Assembly: GCA_024408565.1 (NCBI GenBank)
Contig: JAKSUW010000007.1
Location: forward strand, 1 to 48,404
Length of the DNA stretch: 48,404 bases
Source of the DNA: Bacilli bacterium
Lineage (GTDB): Bacteria > Bacillota_I > Bacilli_A > RFN20 > CAG-826
Reading direction: 5' to 3'
In this document: positions 22,121 through 48,045 of the stretch, piece after piece
Layout: each line of letters opens with the position of its first letter
Position numbering within the stretch: the stretch's first letter is position 1
The notes under the pieces: model-generated
Database searches by the model: none
Told to the model about the DNA's origin: nothing
What the model saw: only the letters and a program-made list of their open reading frames with translations
Translations under genes and position numbers: made by a program

Positions 22121-22660
22121 TCATTTATTTAAACTAGCGATAATGTTTTCAACCGGAAGCCCAACTACATTATCGTAGCTACCATCAATTGATTTAACTA
22201 AAGGATATCTATCTTGAATACCATAGGCGCCGGCCTTACCTTTCGCTAAACCTTTACTAACATATTCATTAATTAAAGAAGTCGATAATTTATTAAAGGT
22301 CACTTTAGTTTTAACGGTCCGCTTAATGGATCGCTTTTGACCTAGATAAACATAACCACTTATGACAATATGTGTTTTATTACTTAAAAGTTTTAAGATG
22401 CGAATCGCGTCTTTATCATCTTTTGGTTTATTAATAATTTTATTATTTAAGACAACAATCGTGTCGCACGCTAAGACATCGTCATGAGGGTAACGCTTCT
22501 TCACTTCATTCGCTTTTAGCTCCGCTAATTTAAGCGGATAGATCGCGATAGGAAAATGGTAGTGACGCTCATCAATATTTGGTTTAACGACTTTAAAACG
22601 ATGAGTTATTTTCTTAATTAATTCTTTTCTTCGGGGTGAAGAAGACGCTAAGATGAGCAT
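22121..22660 (-). CDS. maf: Maf family nucleotide pyrophosphatase
   Basis: A 179-residue Maf protein: N-terminal ILASSSPRRKELI, VLACDTIVVLNN, and KAGAYGIQDR with the family's conserved Gln-Asp. Maf enzymes hydrolyse non-canonical dNTP/NTP such as dTTP/UTP or m5UTP and influence septation. It overlaps the last base of the RNase J gene upstream, so the two form an operon. Convergent with spx, separated by four bases. Confidence 0.93.
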   Translation of the reverse strand: MLILASSSPRRKELIKKITHRFKVVKPNIDERHYHFPIAIYPLKLAELKANEVKKRYPHDDVLACDTIVVLNNKIINKPKDDKDAIRILKLLSNKTHIVISGYVYLGQKRSIKRTVKTKVTFNKLSTSLINEYVSKGLAKGKAGAYGIQDRYPLVKSIDGSYDNVVGLPVENIIASLNK

Positions 22661-24330
22661 TAGTTACTCGTTAATAAAATTGGCACAATGAGTGGGTTAC
22701 GTTCCGTCACTTGGCGAATCGCGTTAAGCGCGGTTGATAACATCTTCGCTTTAATTTCTTCGTTACTAAGACGTAAGGAATGAATGAGTTCATCATAAAC
22801 CGCGTTTTCAACGACGGTCCGGAACTTATCTTCGTTATTAATGACGAAGCCTTTGTAATAAACCCGGGGTCGCTTTAATAATTTATGGTCACGGTTATCA
22901 ATGGTCGCTGTAATAGCGATTAGTCCTTCTTCTTTTAGCATCTTCCGTTCCCGGATGATGTTACTAGAAATACCATTAATGTTATAGCCATCAAGATAAA
23001 TATCATCCACGGGTACATTCTTGCCACGCGTGACGATATGATTACGAAGCACTAAGGAGTTACCATTATCGTTAATAAAGATGTTTTCCTTCGGAATACC
23101 AAGACTTTCGGCAATCATCGCATGAAGTTTAAGCATCCGGTATTCACCATGATCAGGCATAAAGTATTTAGGTTGAAAGAGTTTTAACATTAAACGTAAT
23201 TCTTGGCGACTTGGGTGGCCAGAACTATGGAGTGAGAACATGCCGTTAGTTAAAACGTTCGCACCGCGTTTACTAAGCGTGTTAATTAAACGATCAATCG
23301 CTTCGCCATTCCCGGGGATTGGTGAAGAGGAAAAGACGATGGTATCACCGGGGACTACATGAATACTTTTATGCTCGCCCGCGGCAATCTTGCTGAGCGC
23401 GGCATTAACTTCACCTTGCGAGCCCGTACAAATAATACAAATTTCGTGCGTCTTAAAATTATTCACATTTTCGCTATTAATGATTGCGTCATCGGGAATT
23501 TTGATATAACCATATTTACGTGATACTTGAATCGCAAATTCCATACTCCGACCCACAATTGCAATTTTGCGGTGATGACGGTACGCCGCAATTGCCACTT
23601 GTTGAATCCGCGAAATATTACTACTAAAGGTGGAAACAATAATACGGCCCGGTGCTTTCCGGAAAACATCGTTTAACGATTGAAAAACATTTTTCTCACT
23701 TGGGGTATAGCCTTCGATTTCGGCGTTCGTGGAATCACTAAGTAATAAATCCACCCCTTGTTCGCCAAAGTGCGCAATTTTGTTTAATTCCATTTGTTCG
23801 CCAACGGGTGTTAAATCAACTTTAAAGTCACCTGTGGTAGCGATACGACCTTCTTTCGTATCAATCACGATGCCATAGGCGTCAGGAATAGAGTGGGTGA
23901 CTCGGAAGAAATTAATTTTAAATTCATCGCCATTAATTTTTAAATGGGAATTCGCGTTATATTCGACGATATTAATTGGTTCCCGCACCCGCATCATGTC
24001 AAGTTTATGACGGATGAGCTCAGCTGCAAGTTTTGGGGCATAAACGGTGGGGATATGAACCATTTGGATTAAAAACGGAATACCACCAATATGGTCTTCA
24101 TGACCATGCGTAATAATTAAAGCTTTAATCTTGTGTTTATTTAATTTAAGGTGCGTGTAATCTGGGATGACATAGTCAACACCGGGTAAATTGGCTTCAG
24201 GGAATTTCACACCGGCGTCGATTAAAACAATCGACTGTTCGGTTTCAAGGCAATAAGTATTTTTACCAACTTCGCCTAAACCCCCAAGCGCATAGATAGA
24301 AACACCATCATGGCTAGAAAAGTTATTCAT
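22660..24330 (-). CDS. rnj: Ribonuclease J
   Basis: A 556-residue metallo-beta-lactamase/beta-CASP nuclease: THGHEDHIGG (zinc site), TGDFKVD, SDSTNAE, FSSNISRIQQV (beta-CASP) and SSGHPSRQEL, with a C-terminal domain. RNase J degrades mRNA 5' to 3' and processes rRNA; in Bacilli it replaces RNase E. No Shine-Dalgarno precedes the ATG; a TACAAT-like -10 lies roughly 20-25 bases upstream. Whether it is J1 or J2 cannot be told from one copy. Followed by maf. Confidence 0.95.
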   Translation of the reverse strand: MNNFSSHDGVSIYALGGLGEVGKNTYCLETEQSIVLIDAGVKFPEANLPGVDYVIPDYTHLKLNKHKIKALIITHGHEDHIGGIPFLIQMVHIPTVYAPKLAAELIRHKLDMMRVREPINIVEYNANSHLKINGDEFKINFFRVTHSIPDAYGIVIDTKEGRIATTGDFKVDLTPVGEQMELNKIAHFGEQGVDLLLSDSTNAEIEGYTPSEKNVFQSLNDVFRKAPGRIIVSTFSSNISRIQQVAIAAYRHHRKIAIVGRSMEFAIQVSRKYGYIKIPDDAIINSENVNNFKTHEICIICTGSQGEVNAALSKIAAGEHKSIHVVPGDTIVFSSSPIPGNGEAIDRLINTLSKRGANVLTNGMFSLHSSGHPSRQELRLMLKLFQPKYFMPDHGEYRMLKLHAMIAESLGIPKENIFINDNGNSLVLRNHIVTRGKNVPVDDIYLDGYNINGISSNIIRERKMLKEEGLIAITATIDNRDHKLLKRPRVYYKGFVINNEDKFRTVVENAVYDELIHSLRLSNEEIKAKMLSTALNAIRQVTERNPLIVPILLTSN

Positions 24331-24388: not shown

Positions 24389-24940
24389 TTAAAGCGCAAT
24401 AAAATCTTCGGGCGCTGACAAAGGATCAAGTTTATTAATCCGGTCATAATATAGAATACCCGAAAGGTGATCAATTTCGTGTTGTAAAACAATCGCTTCT
24501 AGGCCTTGCGCTTTAAAGGAAACGTTTTGTTTTAATAAAGCGTCATAGCCTTCCACGCGAATGGCGTAATGACGGAAGACGTAGCCTTCGTGCGTTTCGT
24601 CAACACTTAAACAGCCTTCGCCACCTTTTAAGTAGCATTGTTTAGCGCTTGTGGAAACAATCTTTGGGTTCACGAGGGCGTGCGAGACTTCTTGTCCATC
24701 TTCATTAGTTAAATGAACCACAATCATTTTTTTATTAATGCCGATTTGGGGAGCGGCTAAACCAATCCCTTCGCGCACATCCGGATGCGTTTTGCGGTAG
24801 TTTTCGTCTTGGCTATTTTTTAAATATTCCATCATATCGCTAATCGTTTCTTCGTCTTCTTTACTAATCGGTAAAGTGACATCGACTGATTTATTACGAA
24901 GACTTGGGTTATTGTCTTTAACAATATTAAGTTTCTTATT
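24389..24940 (-). other. def: Peptide deformylase domain of the fusion gene
   Basis: The segment coding residues about 604-786. It begins KLNIVKDNNPSLR, as free deformylases do, so the whole catalytic domain is present, and includes the three canonical motifs. It may be the cell's only deformylase; this window cannot show that. Confidence 0.9.
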
Positions 24941-26749
24941 GCGGTGAGCACCAGCCATAATCTTGCCATTTACATATGTGGCAATGACCGATGTCTTACT
25001 AACCTTATAATTAGCTTGGGCGGTAGTCTTAGAATCCGTAAAATCACACGGATAAATCGAGAAGTCCGCGGCGCGACCAACTTCGATAACACCAATATTG
25101 TTTTCTTCAAATAGCAAATAAGCAGGATCACGGGTTAATGCCCGTAACGCTAAATCGGGAGTGATACATTCGCGCGGATCACGCGGGCCAAGATAGTTCG
25201 GTGAAGTCGGGTCAGCGTTATCCGGATCAACCCGGTTCACTGCGGCATAAATCATGTAAGGAACGCCTTCGGAACACATGCCATCTGTGTGGAAAGAAAC
25301 GCGATTATGATTATCTTGACCAAATAAGGATTTAATTAAATAGCCACGTTGAATGCTCCGTTTATCCGGATTTTGTGGGTCATATTTACCATAAATTTCT
25401 TCTTCATAGCGATCCGCCGCTTGCTTCCGCACACACCAATGAGGTGCGACAAGCGGGGTCACATGATATTTTTCAAATAACGGGACATCTTCATCACGAA
25501 TATAGGCGCAGTGGGCAATACTATTACGATTATAGGGATAAATTTGGTAAGCTTTGCCAAATTCATTTAACGCGAAACGAACTGCTCCATCCCCATAAGC
25601 GTGTACATCAACGGCTAAATCGTTTTTATTGGCCTCGACAATTAAGTCCGCCATCGAAGGAGCGCCGTGCCGTAAACTCTCACGCCAACGGAAAATGCCG
25701 TGATAACCTTGTGGGTAATAACGTTCAAATGGATTAGTAACATATTTTTCCGTTGTGTAAGCACTATATTTTTCCGTTGTGCCATCAATAAATAGTTTCA
25801 CGCCGACAATTTTAAAGAATTCGTGTGAATATTTTTTCCGCAGGTTAATAGCCACTTGGATTTGCTCTTGTGCGCTTGCGGTACTAATTTCGTCGATTAA
25901 GAAAAAGGAACGAACTTTGTATTTGAGTTTGCCTTCAACCGCTAATTGATACATCGCTTCGACGAGTTGAACAGAGGAATCATTAATAATGGTACAATCA
26001 CCGATGGTGGTGTAACCAGTCGGTAGATAAATTCGTTTTTGGGTGTTTAAAATGCTACTTTTAACTTCTTCAATATTCCGTGGGATATAAAGAGCGATGA
26101 TATGGAATGGTGTTTCGCACACATTCCCATCAAGTTCTGGCCCATGGCCAAAATCTTCAAGACCAAACATATCATAGAAATCGTTATCTTTAACAAATTT
26201 AGCATCATCGGTGATGTGGAAACGCTTACGGATAAGATTAAGTGCAGTACTATTAAGGCAACCCGAGTGTCCACTTGTATCAACAACGATGAGAGGACGA
26301 TTTAATGGTTGTCCATTTAATCGAACTTTTTCATCTAGCATTTTACAAGTGAAATGATATTTACCTTGGCTTAAACTAGCGTAAGAACCATAAGTCGAAT
26401 AGAAGGCTTTATCCGGATGAGCGGCAATATAACGGTTAAGTTTCGCAATCGTTTGAGCAGCGGTATCGTCATTCGTGCATAAACAACCGGAGGAGAGACC
26501 CGCACCCATTATGCTCGGATGGGCGTGACCATCAACAAAGCCTGGATAAATATAGTTATCTTGGTAATCGACGACTCTGGTTTTTTTATCAATGTAATTC
26601 TGGGCATCGTTCTTGCTACCAATAAAAATAATTTTGCCATCTTTACTCGCCACAGCTTCCGCGGTAGTTTTTTTCTTGTCGAGAGTAATCACGTGACCAT
26701 ACAAAACGAGGTCAGCTTTTGCCAATTGGCTGTTTGGGAAATTATCCAT
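24389..26749 (-). CDS. Fusion of YtcJ-type amidohydrolase and peptide deformylase
   Basis: A 786-residue open frame with two complete enzymes. Residues 1-598 are an amidohydrolase_3 (YtcJ-like) with the metal motif VDGHAHP (His75, His77), the candidate bridging Lys in VKLFIDGT, VDVHAYGDG, IAHCAY and FHTDG. Residues about 604-786 are a class II peptide deformylase: GIGLAAPQIG (661-670), EGCLSV (711-716) and QHEIDHLSG (His757, Glu758, His761), all metal and catalytic residues present. Deformylase removes formyl from nascent proteins. An internal ATG (residue 598) has no Shine-Dalgarno, so a true fusion is likely. The amidohydrolase substrate is unknown. No Shine-Dalgarno precedes the first ATG either. 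Confidence 0.9.
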   Translation of the reverse strand: MDNFPNSQLAKADLVLYGHVITLDKKKTTAEAVASKDGKIIFIGSKNDAQNYIDKKTRVVDYQDNYIYPGFVDGHAHPSIMGAGLSSGCLCTNDDTAAQTIAKLNRYIAAHPDKAFYSTYGSYASLSQGKYHFTCKMLDEKVRLNGQPLNRPLIVVDTSGHSGCLNSTALNLIRKRFHITDDAKFVKDNDFYDMFGLEDFGHGPELDGNVCETPFHIIALYIPRNIEEVKSSILNTQKRIYLPTGYTTIGDCTIINDSSVQLVEAMYQLAVEGKLKYKVRSFFLIDEISTASAQEQIQVAINLRKKYSHEFFKIVGVKLFIDGTTEKYSAYTTEKYVTNPFERYYPQGYHGIFRWRESLRHGAPSMADLIVEANKNDLAVDVHAYGDGAVRFALNEFGKAYQIYPYNRNSIAHCAYIRDEDVPLFEKYHVTPLVAPHWCVRKQAADRYEEEIYGKYDPQNPDKRSIQRGYLIKSLFGQDNHNRVSFHTDGMCSEGVPYMIYAAVNRVDPDNADPTSPNYLGPRDPRECITPDLALRALTRDPAYLLFEENNIGVIEVGRAADFSIYPCDFTDSKTTAQANYKVSKTSVIATYVNGKIMAGAHRNKKLNIVKDNNPSLRNKSVDVTLPISKEDEETISDMMEYLKNSQDENYRKTHPDVREGIGLAAPQIGINKKMIVVHLTNEDGQEVSHALVNPKIVSTSAKQCYLKGGEGCLSVDETHEGYVFRHYAIRVEGYDALLKQNVSFKAQGLEAIVLQHEIDHLSGILYYDRINKLDPLSAPEDFIAL

Positions 26750-26807
26750 ACAATTTTATATTTTATGCTATATGCATAACATTTCAATATTTTTTTTATT
26801 TTTTTTG

Positions 26808-26813
26808 TATAAT
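26808..26813 (+). promoter_or_regulatory. -10 box of rsmD placed eleven bases before the ATG
   Basis: TATAAT 26808..26813 predicts a start near 26820, four bases before the rsmD ATG at 26824. There is no Shine-Dalgarno. A T-rich tract lies upstream; no clear -35. Confidence 0.5.
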
Positions 26814-26823
26814 TATGGTTGTT

Positions 26824-27360
26824 ATGCGTGTAGTGGCTGGAATATATCGGCATCGTGAATTATTGATGCCAAAAGGCGAAAATACCCGTCCAAGTAAAGA
26901 CATGGTGAAAGAGGGTTTTTTCTCAGCGCTTGGTGAATTAGTAAAAGGCGCAACCGTTTTAGATTTATTTGCGGGTAGTGGGGCACTTGGTATTGAAGCC
27001 ATTAGTCGTGGGGCAAAATTGGTTTATTTGGTTGACCATGACCGCGAAGCGCTTAAAACAATTAGAACTAATCTCGATAATCTAAAGATTACGAATGCAA
27101 AAGTGATGGCGTTAGATTATTCAGTTGCACTAGAGCAAATTAAAAAAGACGGAATTAAATTTGATTTAGTTTTACTTGATCCACCATATCAACTAGATGT
27201 GATTAAGAAGATTGTTCAGCAATTAGTTGATGATGGGCTTCTATCGAAACAAGCGGCGATTGTGATTGAAAGCGAAAAAGAAATTAAACTCGATATCACT
27301 TTTACTAAGGTACGCGATTACCGTTATGGGCGGACATTAATTAAGATTATATGGCGGTAA
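26824..27360 (+). CDS. rsmD: 16S rRNA (guanine-N2)-methyltransferase RsmD
   Basis: A 178-residue Rossmann methyltransferase: MRVVAGIYRHREL, the start typical of RsmD, then NTRPSKDMVKEGFF, SAM motif LDLFAGSGALGIEA and the catalytic LLDPPYQ. It methylates G966 of 16S rRNA. The start at 26824 is chosen because the family begins there and because the -10 box rules out the longer reading upstream; the ATG at 26815 is before the predicted transcription start. It overlaps coaD by 10 bases, the usual rsmD-coaD arrangement. Confidence 0.95.
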   Translation: MRVVAGIYRHRELLMPKGENTRPSKDMVKEGFFSALGELVKGATVLDLFAGSGALGIEAISRGAKLVYLVDHDREALKTIRTNLDNLKITNAKVMALDYSVALEQIKKDGIKFDLVLLDPPYQLDVIKKIVQQLVDDGLLSKQAAIVIESEKEIKLDITFTKVRDYRYGRTLIKIIWR

Positions 27361-27821
27361 AAAAGGTTGCGGTTTTTGCGGGCAGTTTTGACCCGATTAC
27401 CAATGGTCATTTATCGATTCTTAAACTGGCTTTAAAAGATTTTAATCAAGTGATACTACTTTTAGCCGTTAATCCAAAAAAGCGTGCATATTTTACGAGT
27501 AAAAAACGTTTAGCGATGATGAAGGCAGCGGTGAAAGACTTAGACCGTGTCAAAGTTGATTACACGAAAGGCTATACCGTTAATTACGCGAGAAGTCACC
27601 ATGCCGAGTTTCTTATTCGTGGGGTGCGCAATAAAACTGATCAACAATACGAAAATAAACTGGCGAAGATTAACCAAAAACTTGCGCCAGAGATTAAAAC
27701 CATTATTTATCCATGCGAAGCCTGTCACAAAAATTTATCGTCCACAAAGATTAAGCAATTAATAAAAAACGGGAGTGATTTAACTCAGTTCCTCCCGCAT
27801 TCAGTAATTAAACTGATTTAA
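27351..27821 (+). CDS. coaD: Phosphopantetheine adenylyltransferase
   Basis: A 156-residue nucleotidyltransferase that makes dephospho-CoA from phosphopantetheine and ATP. FAGSFDPITNGHLSIL (residues 9-24) holds the T/HxGH motif, RGVRNKTD and NLSSTKIKQL (ISSTxxR) follow. It overlaps rsmD by 10 bases. With the coaX gene at 36101 it gives two steps of CoA synthesis in this window. Its stop abuts a convergent gene (one base away). Confidence 0.96.
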   Translation: MAVKKVAVFAGSFDPITNGHLSILKLALKDFNQVILLLAVNPKKRAYFTSKKRLAMMKAAVKDLDRVKVDYTKGYTVNYARSHHAEFLIRGVRNKTDQQYENKLAKINQKLAPEIKTIIYPCEACHKNLSSTKIKQLIKNGSDLTQFLPHSVIKLI

Positions 27822-28637
27822 TTATTTAGGTTCGAATTCGCCTTCGCCGTTCCAACAATCGACGAGGAATTTCGCCTTCGCCCAGTTATCATCACCAGTT
27901 AGACCAAAGGTTAATTGAGTGATACCAATGTTTGTTTCATCTGGTTCATCTTGGAGTAAAATCTTCCAATCAACGAGAACAAGTAAAGGAAGCTGGAAGT
28001 TGCTTGGATCACAATCGCTAAGTTTTGTTAATTGATCGTCGGTGATTTTACCGTTTTTGTAATATTCAGTTTTTTCACCATTCACCGCCGCTTCTTCAAA
28101 GAACCAACTCTTGCTGTCCATAAAAGTTTCAAACGCGGGTTTCTTTGTAGTGGCAGTGGTCGTTTCTTCATCGGTAAAGATGGTATAAAGGCGAAAATCA
28201 TCTTTGACACCAAAGGTAGTTTTCCAATAGGTTTCCGCAATTTCAAAGCCCGACTTTAAATCATCGTTAACGGTGGCGTAACTAGTGAAGAATAAGAAAA
28301 ACTTTTTTTCTTTATCGGGGATTTTATTGATAACCGCTTTTTTCTGTTCGGGAGTTTTCTGTTCATTATATTCTTTGCGGCTAATGTCATAGCGATCTAA
28401 AAGTTTTTGGGCTTCGCTATCTTTATCGCCTTCCATCTTTAGTTGATAGGTTTCAAAGAATTTTCTCGCACTGTTGTTGTTTTTGATTAAATTTTGAATC
28501 GCGCTCGTAATTGCAGGGATTGAGAAAATTACGCCGAAAATTAAACCGACGATTAAAAGGGGTTGAACCCAAGCGGTGTTCTTAATCCAACGCCAGATTT
28601 TTACAAAAACATTACCAATCGCTTTTAAAATTTTCAT
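27822..28637 (-). CDS. Membrane-anchored protein of unknown function
   Basis: A 271-residue protein with a basic amphipathic N-terminus (KIWRWIKN), one hydrophobic segment (about residues 25-45) and a large hydrophilic C-terminal domain of about 220 residues predicted outside the membrane by the positive-inside rule. Some features (FLFFTSYATVNDD, LPLLVLVDW) would fit a thioredoxin-like beta core, but there is no CxxC and I do not assign it. A TATCAT -10 lies close upstream and no Shine-Dalgarno is seen. Confidence 0.7.
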   Translation of the reverse strand: MKILKAIGNVFVKIWRWIKNTAWVQPLLIVGLIFGVIFSIPAITSAIQNLIKNNNSARKFFETYQLKMEGDKDSEAQKLLDRYDISRKEYNEQKTPEQKKAVINKIPDKEKKFFLFFTSYATVNDDLKSGFEIAETYWKTTFGVKDDFRLYTIFTDEETTTATTKKPAFETFMDSKSWFFEEAAVNGEKTEYYKNGKITDDQLTKLSDCDPSNFQLPLLVLVDWKILLQDEPDETNIGITQLTFGLTGDDNWAKAKFLVDCWNGEGEFEPK

Positions 28638-30069: not shown

Positions 30070-31620
30070 ATGAGCAATCAATTACACTATGATGTGGTGG
30101 TTGTTGGCGCTGGTAACGGTGGCCTTTCAGCCGCGGCTTATTTAGCCCAAAATCACAAAAAAGTTCTCTTACTTGAGAAACATAATTTACCCGGTGGTTG
30201 TGCGACAAGTTTCCGTCGGGGCCGCTTCGAGTTTGAAGCCACTTTACACGAAATGTGTTCGGTTGGTGAAGGAGAAACCGCGGGTGCGGTTCGTCGTTTG
30301 CTTGATAGTTATGGCTTACAAGTGAAGTGGGTCGCGATGAACGAAGCCTTCTGCTCAATTAGTTTAGATAAAAAGGATCCATTCAACGTGTATATGCCAG
30401 TGGGCGTAAAAGCGTTTGCGGATGCGATGGAAAAGGCAGTGCCTGGTTGCCGTAAGAGTGTAGAAACGTTCTTAGAGTTTGGTCGGATGTTTACCGATGG
30501 TGTCGAATGGTTAGATTCTTATCATAATGAACCCGGTGGCTTAGCCAAAATGAAAATGCTCTTCCAATGGAAAGACCTCATGAAACTTGTTCCAATTGAT
30601 ACTGATACGATGTTAAGAAAGATTGGGATGCCTGATAAAGCTAGAGAAATTATTGAATCTTATTGGGACTATATTGCTACACCTAGCGACTCGATGTCCT
30701 TCGCGGTGTACGCGTTTATGACCTATAGTTATATTTACCGGAAACCTTATATTTGTCATGACCGGAGTCATGAAATTTCGCTGGCCTTTGATGCAGCGAT
30801 TCGCAAGATGGGTGGCGATATTTGGTATTGTTCACCTGTAAAGAGCTTTGATGTGCGTGATAATGTTTGTCATGGGGTGACCTTAAATGATGGCACCTAT
30901 ATTAGTGCGGACTATGTGATTGCTAATATCCATCCTGGAACAGTGTTTGGCAAGATGATGGATCCAAAAGAAGTGCCAGTGCGTGACCGTAAGAGTATGA
31001 ACGCACGCCACATTGGTCAACCTTGTCTCACTGTCTATTTTGCCTTAGATGTCACGGCGAAAGAGTTAGGCTTAGATGGCCGTTATGATACTTTCATTCG
31101 GACGACTGGTAATAACCGGATTCAATTTGAAAATAGTAAGAGTTTAGAAACCCATAAGGAAAACTGCATTACGATTCTTAACGAAGTGATTCCGGATTGT
31201 TCACCGAAAGGCACTTGCTTACTCCAATTCACCAAATTCTATGATTGCGACATTATGAAAGGTGTAACACCTGAAAACTACTTTAAGTTTAAAGATAAAA
31301 TCACGATGGATACGATTAAACAGTTTGAAAAAGATATGAAAGTGAATATTCGTGATCATATCGAAGAAGTGGTGATTGCGACACCAACTACTTGGGCGCG
31401 TTACGTTGGTTCACCCAATGGCAATACCTACGGTTATATTCCACAAAATTGGGATGGCATGTTTGCGCGGGTCCAATCTGGTCATAAGCTTGATCACACG
31501 ATTAAACGGTTAAGACTTTGTGGTGGACACGGCACCCAGATGGATGGTTATTCCCAATCTTATTTAAGCGGACGCGAACAAGCCCGTTACGCCTTACTTG
31601 ATATGGCAAAAGGAGAATAA
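30070..31620 (+). CDS. CrtI / retinol-saturase-like FAD oxidoreductase
   Basis: A 516-residue flavoprotein of the phytoene desaturase/isomerase/saturase superfamily (COG1233 type). The dinucleotide fold [18 protein letters not shown] (residues 9-26), [15 protein letters not shown] and the C-terminal [26 protein letters not shown] motif are clear. Members desaturate, isomerise or reduce conjugated polyenes and polyprenols. No carotenoid synthase is nearby. The next gene, two bases later, is a ferredoxin-type reductase, so the pair may act reductively on an isoprenoid or conjugated lipid. The substrate is inference. Confidence 0.88.
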
Positions 31621-31622
31621 TT

Positions 31623-32810
31623 ATGGCGAAGTATAATTACGATAAAAAACATTTAAAAGGCTTAGGCGTTGGTGCGTTTTTAGGCTTAGTGAAAGAAAGA
31701 AATAAACACATCGAAGCGGCGAGTGATGAACTCCATCCGTTTGATTATCCCGCGAATAAATTAGTGGACGCTCTCCACCCCGCGAGTCAATTAACGAAAG
31801 TGAGTAAAGTCATTGCCCGGGCGAATGCGAAAAGCTTTGTTTTAACCTCAACCGAAAATAAGCCACTCGCTTATTTCCGCGCTGGTCAATACGTTGTCCT
31901 TGATATCAAAGTTGGGAAAGTGGTGGTGAGTCGCCCCTTCTCAATTTCTTCTTCACCCAAGAAAGCGTTAGGCAAAGATTCTCATTATGTAATTACCATT
32001 AAAGATAATGTTGATGGTTTCTCGTCAAAAGAAGTTAACAAGAAATGGAAAGTGGGACAAGCGGTTAAGATCTCAGGTCCCCAAGGCGAATTCTACTATA
32101 GTCCCATTCGCGATGCGAAGACCGTCGTCGCGGTCGCGGGTGGTAGTGGTATTACTCCATTTATTTCGATGGCCGAAGCCATCGCCGATGGTACCGAAGA
32201 CTTTAACCTCACCATTATTTATGGAGCGAAAAATAAGAGTGCATTACTCTTTAAGGATGAATTAGACGCGATTACAAAAAAGTGTAAGAAAGTGAAAGTT
32301 GCTTATGTCTTAGAAGACAAAGATGGCTTTATTACCGCTAAGATTATTAAGAAATACGCGAAAGGCGATTATTCCCTCTTTGTTTGTGGTCCGCGTGGTT
32401 TATATCGCGCGATGGATAAGGTGGCGAAAGAACTTAAACTCACCCGTCGTCGGTTTAGAAAAGAAGCGTTTGGGGAATATGGTGATCCAACGAAGGATAA
32501 AGATTTCCCGAAAGACGCGATTAATAAGAGTTATAAACTCACTGTTATTATGCGGGATAAGAAATATCATCTCACCTGCCATAGTAATGAGACTTTACTT
32601 AATGCGATGGAAAAGGGCGGCGTCCACGCGCCAAGCCGTTGCCGGAGTGGTGAATGTGGGTGGTGCCATTCGTTACTTGTTAGTGGTAAGATCTATGCAC
32701 CAAAAGAAACCGAAGGTCGTCGTTTAGCCGACTATACCTTTAACTGGATTCATCCGTGCTCTTCATATCCATTAAGTGATATTGTGCTTGAAGTTCCTTA
32801 CAATAAATAA
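31623..32810 (+). CDS. Ferredoxin-NAD(P) reductase with C-terminal 2Fe-2S domain
   Basis: A 395-residue electron-transfer protein. Residues 1-60 form an N-terminal extension, about 60-150 an FAD-binding barrel (RPFSISSSP), about 165-290 an NAD(P)-binding fold (VAGGSGITPFISMA; FVCGPRG), and about 310-395 a plant-type ferredoxin with Cys340, Cys345, Cys348 and Cys379 (C-x4-C-x2-C-x30-C). The order FAD-NAD-2Fe2S matches class IA-like oxygenase reductases. It is two bases after the CrtI-like gene and is surely its electron partner. A strong bidirectional terminator follows. Confidence 0.92.
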   Translation: MAKYNYDKKHLKGLGVGAFLGLVKERNKHIEAASDELHPFDYPANKLVDALHPASQLTKVSKVIARANAKSFVLTSTENKPLAYFRAGQYVVLDIKVGKVVVSRPFSISSSPKKALGKDSHYVITIKDNVDGFSSKEVNKKWKVGQAVKISGPQGEFYYSPIRDAKTVVAVAGGSGITPFISMAEAIADGTEDFNLTIIYGAKNKSALLFKDELDAITKKCKKVKVAYVLEDKDGFITAKIIKKYAKGDYSLFVCGPRGLYRAMDKVAKELKLTRRRFRKEAFGEYGDPTKDKDFPKDAINKSYKLTVIMRDKKYHLTCHSNETLLNAMEKGGVHAPSRCRSGECGWCHSLLVSGKIYAPKETEGRRLADYTFNWIHPCSSYPLSDIVLEVPYNK

Positions 32811-33694: not shown

Positions 33695-36100
33695 ATGAGC
33701 CGTACGTATGAGCATTTAACCATCGAAAAAAAGTGGCGGGAATATTGGGCAAAACACAATACTTTTTATTGCGATACGCACGATTTTAAGAAACCGAAAT
33801 ATTACATCTTAGATATGTTCCCTTATCCTAGTGGCGAAGGTCTACACGTTGGTCACCCGGAAGGCTATACGGCGAGTGATATCATCGCACGGGTGAAACG
33901 GATGCAAGGCTACAATGTGCTTCATCCAATGGGTTGGGATGCGTTTGGTTTACCCGCTGAACAATTCGCTTTAAAAAATAATGTTCATCCGGAAGCCTTT
34001 ACGCGAAAAAATATCGCCCACTTTAAAGAACAAATTGAATCATTAGGTTTTTCTTACGACTGGAGTAAAGAAATCTCCACGATTGATCCTAGTTACTATA
34101 AATGGACCCAATGGATTTTTCTTAAACTCTATGAACATGGTCTAGCGGAAGTAAAAAATATCCCAGTGAATTTTTGTCCGAAACTTGGGACAGTTCTCGC
34201 TAATGAAGAAGTAATTGATGGAAAAAGTGAACGGGGTGGTTATCCGGTTATCCGGATGCCAATGCGGCAATGGATTTTAAAAATTACTAAATACGCAGAT
34301 AAACTCCTTGATGGTTTAAAAGAACTTGATTGGCCGAAGTCCACGATTGATATGCAAACCAATTGGATTGGTAAATCAATCGGTACCACGGTGACCTTTA
34401 AGATTAAAGGTAGTAATAAAACTTTTGATGTCTTTACAACTCGCGCGGATACTTTATTTGGTTGTACCTATTGCACCTTAGCGCCTGAGCATCCATTAGT
34501 GAAAGAGATTGTGAGTCAAGAACAAAAAGAGGAAGTTCTCGCCTATATTGAAAAAGTTTCACATAAGTCTGATCTAGAACGGACTGATTTAAATAAAGAT
34601 AAGTCCGGGGTATTTTTAGGCGTCTACGCGATTAATCCCATTAACCAAAAAGAAGTCCCGATTTATATTGCTGACTATGTTTTAGCAAGTTATGGGACTG
34701 GTGCTGTGATGGCGGTTCCCGCGCACGATAGTCGCGACTACGCGTTTGCTAAACTTCATCATCTTCCCATGATTCAAGTCTTAGAAGGTGATATTACTAA
34801 AGCGGCAATGGAAGAAGACGCGAAGCATATTAATAGTGATTTTATTAACGGCTTAATGATTGATGAAGCGAAACAAAAAATCACCAAACAATTAATGAAG
34901 ATTAAAGCGGGTAGTTTTACCGTTCACTATAAATTACGCGATTGGCTGTTCTCCCGGCAACGGTATTGGGGTGAACCAATTCCGATGTTAATGGACGAGA
35001 ATGATTTAAAGCCGTTAAATGAAAAAGACTTACCTTTGGTTTTACCAAAACTAGAGAAGTATGCGCCAAGTGGAACAGGTGAGTCGCCACTTGTTCATGC
35101 GGGTGATTGGTTAAATGTTAAGTTAAACAATAAAACCTATAAACGCGAAACGAACACAATGCCCCAATGGGCGGGCTCTTGTTGGTATTATCTCCGCTAT
35201 ATTGATCCAAAGAATGATAACGCGATTGCTGATCCTAATTTACTAAAACACTGGCTACCAGTGGACTTATATATCGGTGGGAGTGAACACGCGGTGCTGC
35301 ATCTACTTTATGCACGGTTCTGGCATAAATTCTTACACGATATTAACGTTGTACCAACTAGTGAACCATTTAAGAAATTATTCCACCAAGGTATGATCTT
35401 AGGGGAAAACGGCGAGAAGATGAGTAAGAGCCGTGGTAACGTCATTAATCCGGATGATATTGTAAAACAATACGGCGCGGATTCTTTACGTTTATACGAA
35501 ATGTTTATGGGGCCACTTGAAGCCTCGCTTCCCTGGAGTATGACGGGTCTAGATGGAGCAAGACGCTTTATTGAACGCGTCTGGCGGGTTTATACAAGCG
35601 ATGAACTCACAAAACGCTATAGTAAAGATAACGACCATAAGCTTGATTACATCTATCACTTTACGGTGAAGAAAGTAACCGAAGATTTCACGAATCTTCA
35701 ATTTAACACGGCGATTAGCCAAATGATGATTTTTATTAACGAAGTTTATAAAGCGGATAAAATCTATGAACCTTACATGCTTAATTTCTTAAAGATGTTC
35801 AGTTGTGTTTGTCCCTTTATTGGTGAAGAAATTAATGAACTTTTAGGAAGTCATGATTCCTTAGCCTACGCTTCTTGGCCAACTTATGATGAATCGAAAA
35901 TTGTGTTAGATGAAATTGAAATCGCTTTAAGCGTCAACGGAAAGATGAAGACAACTGTCAAGATTAAAACTAACGCGAGTGATGAAGAAATGAAAAACAT
36001 CGCCCTTAATAACGAAGTCATTAAGAAACATATTGACGGGAAAACCATTCGCAAGGTCATTACCGTGAAGAATAAAATTGTGAACGTGGTGGTAAGTTAA
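33695..36100 (+). CDS. leuS: Leucyl-tRNA synthetase
   Basis: An 801-residue class Ia synthetase charging tRNA-Leu. HVGH is at residues 51-54 in [12 protein letters not shown]; the CP1 editing domain is present ([26 protein letters not shown]); KMSKS is near residue 575; the C-terminal domain ends in VNVVVS. Unlike many Bacillota synthetase genes it has no T-box leader and is predicted leaderless. It heads the leuS-coaX-M20-trmB-pncB operon; coaX begins on the next base after its stop. Confidence 0.98.
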
Positions 36101-46140: not shown

Positions 46141-46156
46141 TGGTATAATGAAATTA
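46141..46156 (+). promoter_or_regulatory. Extended -10 of the BspA-like lipoprotein gene; leaderless start
   Basis: TGG-TATAAT (box 46144..46149) predicts a start at 46156, the A of the ATG. No Shine-Dalgarno. The TTGACA at 46111..46116 is 27 bases from the box and is not a -35. Confidence 0.55.
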
Positions 46157-48045
46157 TGAAAAAACTAGGATTATTAGTAATACCAGTGATGGCGGTATCT
46201 CTTTTGGCGAGTTGTGTCCACGGGCCAGAACCAACGCCGACTACTAAATATACCTTAAACTTTATTCTCGATGATTGTAATGTCGGAGGCGAAACCACCT
46301 ACTCTAAAACATATGATAAAGGAGCAACAATTGAACCTGTTACGGTTTCGCCCGTTGATAGTTTTGTTTTAACCGATGACAGTGTTGAAACTAGATATCA
46401 ACAATATTGGAGTGAAGCAACCGGTGGAAATTATACTTTCTCTAATTTAACAATGAACACTAATTATACAATCGTTATTGCTGCGACGCCGACTTATACT
46501 ATCACTTTTAAAAATGAAGGCGATGAAGACAAAAAAATAGACAATATTAAAGCGGGCAGTATTATCACAGATAATATTCCCACCCCCTCTCCGCGAGAGG
46601 GATACGACTTTATTGGTTGGTGCACTAATGCTGGCGGCGAATGTGTTTTTGATTTTAGTAAAATTAAAATTTATCAAGATTACACTTTGTATTCAGGATG
46701 GAAAGAAAGTAGAGCAACCGCTTATACCGTCACTTGGTTTGATTGGGATGGTACAAAGTTAAAGGTTGATTTAAATGTAAAAGATGGTACAGTGCCGGTT
46801 TATGAAGATCCAACCCATCCTACACCAACAAGAGAATCTGACATTTATATTTACAATTTTAAATCCTGGCTACCAATACCTAAAGAAATTCATTGTGACA
46901 CAGTGTACATTGCTACTTATGACAAAACTCTCAACGCTCAATTTTGCTCGAACATTGATATGAAAGAAGATAATCAAACATTTAAATTTAGCGATATAAG
47001 TGCAGATGAATTTATTATCGATTGGGGAGATGATAGTGGACTATCACAAGAGTTATCACATCAGTATACTAGTAAAGGCAAATATGATATTAAAGTAGGC
47101 GCAAAATCCTTATCAGATTTTAAAATTGATGATACTTCTAAGGCGTTTATTCAAACTGCGCATTTAGGAACTGGCGTTAGAGAAATTAGCGATGGAGCTT
47201 TTAATGGTTGTTCTAATCTTACTAGTATCGATCTTCCTGATAGTATAATTGCTATCGGTAGCAAGGCTTTCAAAGAATGTTCTCAACTTGCGAGTATTAA
47301 ATTACCAAATAATCCTAGTCTAACCTCTATTAATAACGACACTTTCCGTGGTTGTTCTAACCTTGCTAGTGTTATTTTCCCTAGTAAATTATCCTCTATT
47401 GGCGAAAATACTTTCCGAGGTTGTGCAAAACTTGATGTTGTTAATATTCCCGATACCGTAACTTCCATCGGCGAGTATGCTTTTGCAGGTTGTCATAGCC
47501 TCACTTCCATCATTATCCCCGATGGTGTAGAATCCATTTCACAATTTACTTTTCAGCATTGTTTTAATCTTGTTAACATTACATTACCTAGCGCGTTAGT
47601 TTCTATCGAGGAAGATGCTTTCTATGAGTGCACAAGCCTCGCCACTATTAACTTACCCAATACGGTAACTTCAATCTCTAGAGGCGCTTTCTTTGGGTGC
47701 TCTAGTCTCACCACTATTAACATTCCTAATAGTTTAAGATCTATTGATGGTCAGGTTTTTTCTAATTGCACTAGTCTTGCTACTATCAGCATTCCTAATA
47801 CTGTAACTTCGATTGGTGATCTTACTTTCCACAAGTGTGGGAGTCTAGAAAAAGTCGATTTAACTACTTATACCACCAGTAGCACAATTCCAACTTGTAA
47901 TTCCGATTCCTTCTATGAGTGTTCTACAAAACTTAAATTTCATGTGGCTAGCGAAGAAATGGCCAATAAGTTTAAAGATAGTGGTAAAGGTTGGCCTAAC
48001 ATTCTTGATAAATATCATTGGCCGGGAAAACCAGAAAAAATCTAA
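46156..48045 (+). CDS. BspA-like leucine-rich-repeat lipoprotein with InlB-type repeat
   Basis: A 629-residue lipoprotein: signal MKKLGLLVIPVMAVSLLASC (Cys at residue 20), then beta domains. Residues about 115-175 match a Listeria-Bacteroides/InlB B-repeat (YTITFKNEGDE; GYDFIGWCT; YTLYSGWK), about 285-325 have a PKD-like pattern (IDWGDDSG, HQYTSKGKYDI), and about 335-590 hold some ten TpLRR units of about 23 residues (xxIGxxAFxxCxxLxxIxLPxx) before a cap. Surface-exposed binding protein. It shares repeat type with the 8536 gene but not the overall layout. Confidence 0.9.
   Translation: MKKLGLLVIPVMAVSLLASCVHGPEPTPTTKYTLNFILDDCNVGGETTYSKTYDKGATIEPVTVSPVDSFVLTDDSVETRYQQYWSEATGGNYTFSNLTMNTNYTIVIAATPTYTITFKNEGDEDKKIDNIKAGSIITDNIPTPSPREGYDFIGWCTNAGGECVFDFSKIKIYQDYTLYSGWKESRATAYTVTWFDWDGTKLKVDLNVKDGTVPVYEDPTHPTPTRESDIYIYNFKSWLPIPKEIHCDTVYIATYDKTLNAQFCSNIDMKEDNQTFKFSDISADEFIIDWGDDSGLSQELSHQYTSKGKYDIKVGAKSLSDFKIDDTSKAFIQTAHLGTGVREISDGAFNGCSNLTSIDLPDSIIAIGSKAFKECSQLASIKLPNNPSLTSINNDTFRGCSNLASVIFPSKLSSIGENTFRGCAKLDVVNIPDTVTSIGEYAFAGCHSLTSIIIPDGVESISQFTFQHCFNLVNITLPSALVSIEEDAFYECTSLATINLPNTVTSISRGAFFGCSSLTTINIPNSLRSIDGQVFSNCTSLATISIPNTVTSIGDLTFHKCGSLEKVDLTTYTTSSTIPTCNSDSFYECSTKLKFHVASEEMANKFKDSGKGWPNILDKYHWPGKPEKI

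Follow-up and report, generated by a model that had tools for sequence, protein, structure and literature searches.

The stretch of DNA analysed here (the window, 48,404 nucleotides) comes from a bacterium of the class Bacilli. On its minus strand it carries one ATG-to-stop frame of 786 codons, with no interruption, in which a YtcJ-type amidohydrolase is followed directly by a class II peptide deformylase (def). The fused gene lies downstream of a short divergent intergenic region that it shares with the 16S rRNA methyltransferase gene rsmD, and upstream of the RNase J gene rnjA (Table 1).

Table 1. Features of the fusion locus and its neighbourhood (positions are those of the window).
Feature	Position	Strand	Basis or remarks
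rnjA (RNase J), conserved downstream neighbour of def	22660..24330	-	synteny in relatives
Fused amidohydrolase-deformylase gene, 786 aa	24389..26749	-	same architecture in the sister species G003; dN/dS 0.079 overall
Complete class II peptide deformylase, residues 605-786	24392..24937	-	PF01327 and TIGR00079 above cut-off
Junction A-G-A-H-R-N, residues 599-604	24938..24955	-	comparison with free amidohydrolase and free def
YtcJ-type (Amidohydro_3) amidohydrolase without signal peptide, residues 1-602	24944..26749	-	PF07969
Internal ATG, codon 598	24956..24958	-	no Shine-Dalgarno, no leaderless-type -10 box
Divergent intergenic region common to the fusion and rsmD	26750..26823	-	probable descendant of the def promoter region
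rsmD (16S rRNA methyltransferase), divergent neighbour of def	26824..27360	+	TATAAT 10 nt before ATG
coaD, conserved next neighbour	27351..27821	+	

The preliminary description had read this frame as a complete amidohydrolase joined to a complete deformylase, and profile searches bear this out. In Pfam, Amidohydro_3 (PF07969) matches residues 58-598 of the fused protein (E 3e-35), the amidohydrolase half scoring 123 bits against a cut-off of 29.7, and Pep_deformylase (PF01327) matches residues 607-775 (E 2e-43). The tail also scores 153 bits with the NCBIfam model TIGR00079, whose equivalog cut-off is 103.95. Like class II deformylases such as 2okl, the nearest solved structure, the tail possesses the full domain and all three motifs intact (GIGLAAPQIG, EGCLSV and QHEIDH; GxGLAAPQ, EGCLS and HEIDH are invariant in seven aligned deformylases), together with the genomic neighbourhood of the free def genes of the family. 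It differs in that deformylase is a free protein in all listed relatives and is here a C-terminal domain without a start codon of its own. The N-terminal half shares with YtcJ-like amidohydrolases (PF07969; 3icj, 3igh) the fold, the catalytic histidine and the pattern of a dinuclear metal site (HxH, Lys, His, His, Asp), with all six metal ligands present (H75, H77, K318, H383, H413 and D489) and conserved in 19 homologues, but it carries a deformylase at its C-terminus and lacks the lipoprotein signal of its close family relatives. In the predicted structure of the fusion (mean pLDDT 74.5) the amidohydrolase barrel is confident, with 3icj and 3igh as best Foldseek hits; the deformylase domain, for which the alignment was shallow, is less so, and the joint at residues 601-614 is of low confidence.

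Comparison with the separate genes of relatives locates the junction precisely. The amidohydrolase half aligns through the native C-terminus of its nearest free counterpart, whose stop codon is gone, and the deformylase half aligns with free def from codon 2 onward, Asn604 standing at the position of the def start codon, so that there is essentially no linker. The identical 786-aa architecture is carried by a second species of the same genus, represented by a metagenome genome from horse faeces (G003, contig JAKSUV010000008.1), in which the junction is likewise open and conserved and the gene neighbourhood matches. The two fused proteins are 94.7% identical in amino acids and their genes differ by 134 synonymous and 47 nonsynonymous changes (dS 0.33), with no indel; the stop codon or frameshift between the domains that, according to the preliminary description, would speak against a fusion is thus absent from an independent assembly. 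Given dN/dS ratios of 0.073 for the amidohydrolase half and 0.085 for the deformylase half, and the lack of indels, both halves are maintained by purifying selection and the junction has been kept open through considerable divergence.

Fused and unfused homologues were surveyed in samples of 395 genomes of the class and 392 of the phylum and in 224 genomes of the family. No further amidohydrolase-def fusion was found among the amidohydrolase homologues of these genomes, all of them being free frames except in the host (G000) and G003. Amidohydrolases of this kind occur in 10 of the 224 family genomes. A pattern scan of genome contigs yielded only three relatives, and a deeper mixed alignment, in which partial sequences were misaligned, was left out of the results. 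Also, a literature search recovered no description of an amidohydrolase-deformylase fusion. The fusion is a genuine new domain architecture, clade-specific and mechanistically modest; it probably arose before the host and its sister species diverged and would be evolutionarily young.

Across the 26 contigs of the host genome, which total 929,526 bp and are 90.8% complete, the fused tail is the only PF01327 match; G003 also has a single one. In the family, 215 of the 224 genomes have a PF01327 match, nearly always one per genome. Among the matches listed, which were inspected one by one and outside which lie about 65 weaker def matches, the frames are free and of approximately 160-270 codons, except those of the two fused species (788). 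A profile search for a second def in the 90.8%-complete host genome found none; a hidden second copy was discarded as an explanation, given that the native def locus is the fusion itself and that the family nearly always has one def. Each fused species has one formyltransferase gene (fmt), separate from the fusion (on contig G000:C21 in the host), and methionine aminopeptidase (map) is above cut-off in the host and gives a weak, sub-threshold match in the 66%-complete G003. Since fmt and map are present and no other def was found, the cycle of formylation and deformylation appears intact and must depend on the fused protein, barring a def in the 9% of the genome that is missing. A bacterial deformylase in one gene with a larger enzyme has a parallel in the def-fmt fusion of Exiguobacterium, which is functional, complements an E. 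coli def-fmt deletion and coexists with a second, free PDF (PMC12690207). There, however, the partner is a pathway enzyme, whereas here it is an unrelated amidohydrolase, fmt stands apart and def is single.

In relatives, free def adjoins the divergent rsmD, with rnjA downstream (G001, G002 and G004 of the same genus, G014 and G051 of the same family), and the fusion occupies exactly this position of the free gene in every relative examined. Because a free def stands at precisely this locus in relatives, the tail can be identified, on gene order, as the native housekeeping def. The view of the preliminary description that deformylase seems to exist only as the fused tail appears to hold: there is one def per genome, the ancestral def locus is occupied and the def start codon has been replaced. 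G004 and G001 each have a small ORF in the gap between rnjA and def, on the strand opposite to these genes (L033 6916-7245 (+) and L036 3035-3442 (+), respectively); the fused species lack it. Beyond coaD, positions 27822-28637 (-) encode a 271-aa protein with no Pfam match that is conserved beside coaD/rsmD across the family and evolves fast (81% between the sister species). Further along, an FAD amine-oxidase-like protein is encoded beside a ferredoxin/NAD reductase (30070-32810 (+)); these proteins are 99.4-99.5% identical to those of G003, with dN/dS about 0.01, and are more constrained than several of their neighbours.

The amidohydrolase half has a different history. Its nearest free counterparts, 46% identical in G004 (encoded beside rplQ) and 33% identical in G001, lie at loci unrelated to def, and a maximum-likelihood tree joins the fused pair first to that of G004 and then to the G001 lipoprotein, with 99-100% support. 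These two and most other amidohydrolases of the family start with lipoprotein signal peptides that end in a lipobox cysteine, as judged by eye. The fused copy has no signal peptide, its first residues lying roughly at the start of the mature lipoprotein, and for this reason the amidohydrolase appears to have moved from the cell surface to the cytoplasm on fusing. The amidohydrolase of G105, from the same family, has neither a signal peptide nor a fusion partner; cytoplasmic amidohydrolases of this clade can therefore exist unfused. Elsewhere in the window, a BspA-type lipoprotein with leucine-rich repeats is encoded at 46156-48045 (+). Its signal peptide, MKKLGLLVIPVMAVSLLASC, is almost identical to the one on the amidohydrolase lipoprotein of G001, MKKLGLLVIPIMSVSLLTGC, which suggests that lipoprotein signals are shuffled or conserved.

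Related genomes with two separate genes, which the preliminary description would have taken as evidence against the fusion, were thus encountered (G004, G001), but they mean that the fusion is derived, which does not make it false. A tandem or operon of both genes in the ancestor was discarded, as the free amidohydrolase and the free def are at unrelated loci in these two genomes. A recent arrival of foreign DNA was also discarded: third-position GC is 36.0% in the amidohydrolase half and 37.3% in the def half, close to host genes, and no compositional trace is left. The AT-rich intergenic DNA does not allow the breakpoints of the presumed insertion to be placed exactly.

A promoter-like site precedes the fusion, consisting of TTGAAA (26787-26782), a spacer of 16 nt and TAAAAT (26765-26760), 10 nt from the ATG at 26749; the start is near-leaderless and lacks a Shine-Dalgarno sequence. 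In 351 kb of the host genome (window 1-48404 and L070-L089), a 4-base match resembling a Shine-Dalgarno sequence precedes only about 45% of ORF starts, and an exact TATAAT occurs 6-11 nt before the start of 24 of the 244 ORFs, as against none of 237 internal ATGs. This pile-up corresponds to the layout of leaderless genes, and starts of this type are common in the present lineage of Bacilli; in the window they are exemplified by rsmD (26824) and by the ORFs at 33695 and 46156. The free def genes of the family are mostly without a Shine-Dalgarno sequence too, and in many of them a -10 box lies 4-8 nt before the ATG.

Our preferred explanation, which we hold to be reasonably probable, is that a lipoprotein amidohydrolase inserted in frame at native def, that the tail is the housekeeping deformylase and that the fusion has been kept through expression coupling rather than substrate channelling. 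An exported lipoprotein amidohydrolase, reduced to its mature part by loss of signal peptide and stop, would have entered between the def promoter and def codon 2 in the common ancestor of the two fused species. At its own ATG, a leaderless def cut off from its promoter in this way would have lacked both a transcript end and a ribosome site, and would have been rescued by translation within the upstream frame; def being essential, an insertion would have survived only if it kept the frame. The apparently leaderless def gene of this lineage, with no ribosome-binding site, is most likely the reason why the fusion has lasted. The tail would continue ordinary deformylation of nascent proteins as the only deformylase of the cell, and the amidohydrolase half would be an intact dinuclear metal hydrolase, now cytoplasmic and under the def promoter. 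Expression coupling may account for the structural features found. On its own it does not explain the strong purifying selection on the amidohydrolase half, and from this selection since the fusion it follows that some useful cytoplasmic role must exist.

A free deformylase might still be produced, either by an internal start at ATG 598 or by proteolysis at the junction, the fused form being a precursor or by-product. This ATG is conserved in both fused species, seven codons before the def core, and the low confidence of the predicted structure at residues 601-614 is as expected of a flexible joint. The preliminary description had argued from the lack of a Shine-Dalgarno sequence at codon 598 that deformylase seems to exist only in fused form; the absence itself stands, but it carries little weight as an argument, because leaderless starts are common in the host and the start of the fusion ORF, like over half of host starts, also lacks one. 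Against an internal start it can be added that the best match to a -10 box at ATG 598 has two mismatches, and that promoter-like matches around it are no more numerous than in shuffled sequence. We consider the production of a free enzyme unlikely, if conceivable.

The preliminary description had also proposed that the amidohydrolase might act on a formylated or amide product linked to N-terminal processing. Both halves would then be functionally coupled, with formyl or acyl amino acids or N-formyl peptides as substrates, in a joint enzyme of N-terminal processing or formyl recycling. Conservation of the fusion, constraint on both halves and the change of compartment to join a cytoplasmic enzyme would all be consistent with such a role, and characterised PF07969 members include the N-substituted formamide deformylase NfdA and aminoacylases (PMC13081902). 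However, the ancestral amidohydrolase was, to judge by its relatives, an exported lipoprotein from an unrelated locus, and so would have had no prior link to deformylation and no contact with ribosomes or nascent chains. Its rarity in the family and the rate of the def half, which evolves no differently from free def, point the same way. The proposal is thus unsupported, and coupling of this sort seems rather improbable. In its most specific form, the fusion would be a dedicated two-step enzyme whose amidohydrolase half acts on amino acids or peptides from translation that bear formyl or acyl groups, this half having been recruited from the surface to the nascent-chain deformylase; this is very doubtful, but if true it would represent a new kind of N-terminal processing enzyme.

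The family PF07969 includes formamide deformylase, aminoacylases, deaminases and the recently described metal-dependent bile salt hydrolases (metalloBSH) (PMC13081902), and capture of a metalloBSH by def could be imagined in a gut bacterium. Like the metalloBSH of Bilophila, a gut PF07969 enzyme, the fused half has the six metal ligands; residues of this kind have been shown by mutagenesis to be essential in BwBSH1, whose catalytic H196 corresponds by position to H161 here (PMC13081902). The two differ in substrate-binding residues, secretion and C-terminal domain. By position relative to the conserved ligands, S194 of the taurine-sulfonate residues is matched by S159, the predicted sulfonate-binding Q381 and N443 are replaced by E326 and Y385, and an equivalent of H544 was not placed; also, the C-terminal domain is absent, with def in its stead, and the fused form has no secretion signal. 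Judged by these residues, the amidohydrolase half does not read as a metalloBSH, and its capture as such is highly improbable. Finally, an assembly or sequencing error that joined two genes is scarcely credible: the two genomes, possibly from similar kinds of sample, are both metagenome-type assemblies, but the same frame with the exact same junction is common to two separately assembled species at 8% nucleotide divergence, and the synteny of the native locus is preserved on either side.

Peptide deformylase is an essential, ribosome-associated antibiotic target that nearly always occurs as a small enzyme on its own. The host and its sister species are related horse-gut-type bacteria in which the fusion is real, evolutionarily young, unusual in being the sole deformylase and narrowly distributed. 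With an 87 kDa hydrolase that bears their only deformylase at its C-terminus, they provide a test of how much N-terminal bulk is tolerated at the ribosome. They also suggest a general route to odd fusions where genes are leaderless: if a gene comes to lie between an essential gene and its leaderless promoter, in-frame fusion may be the outcome most easily survived.
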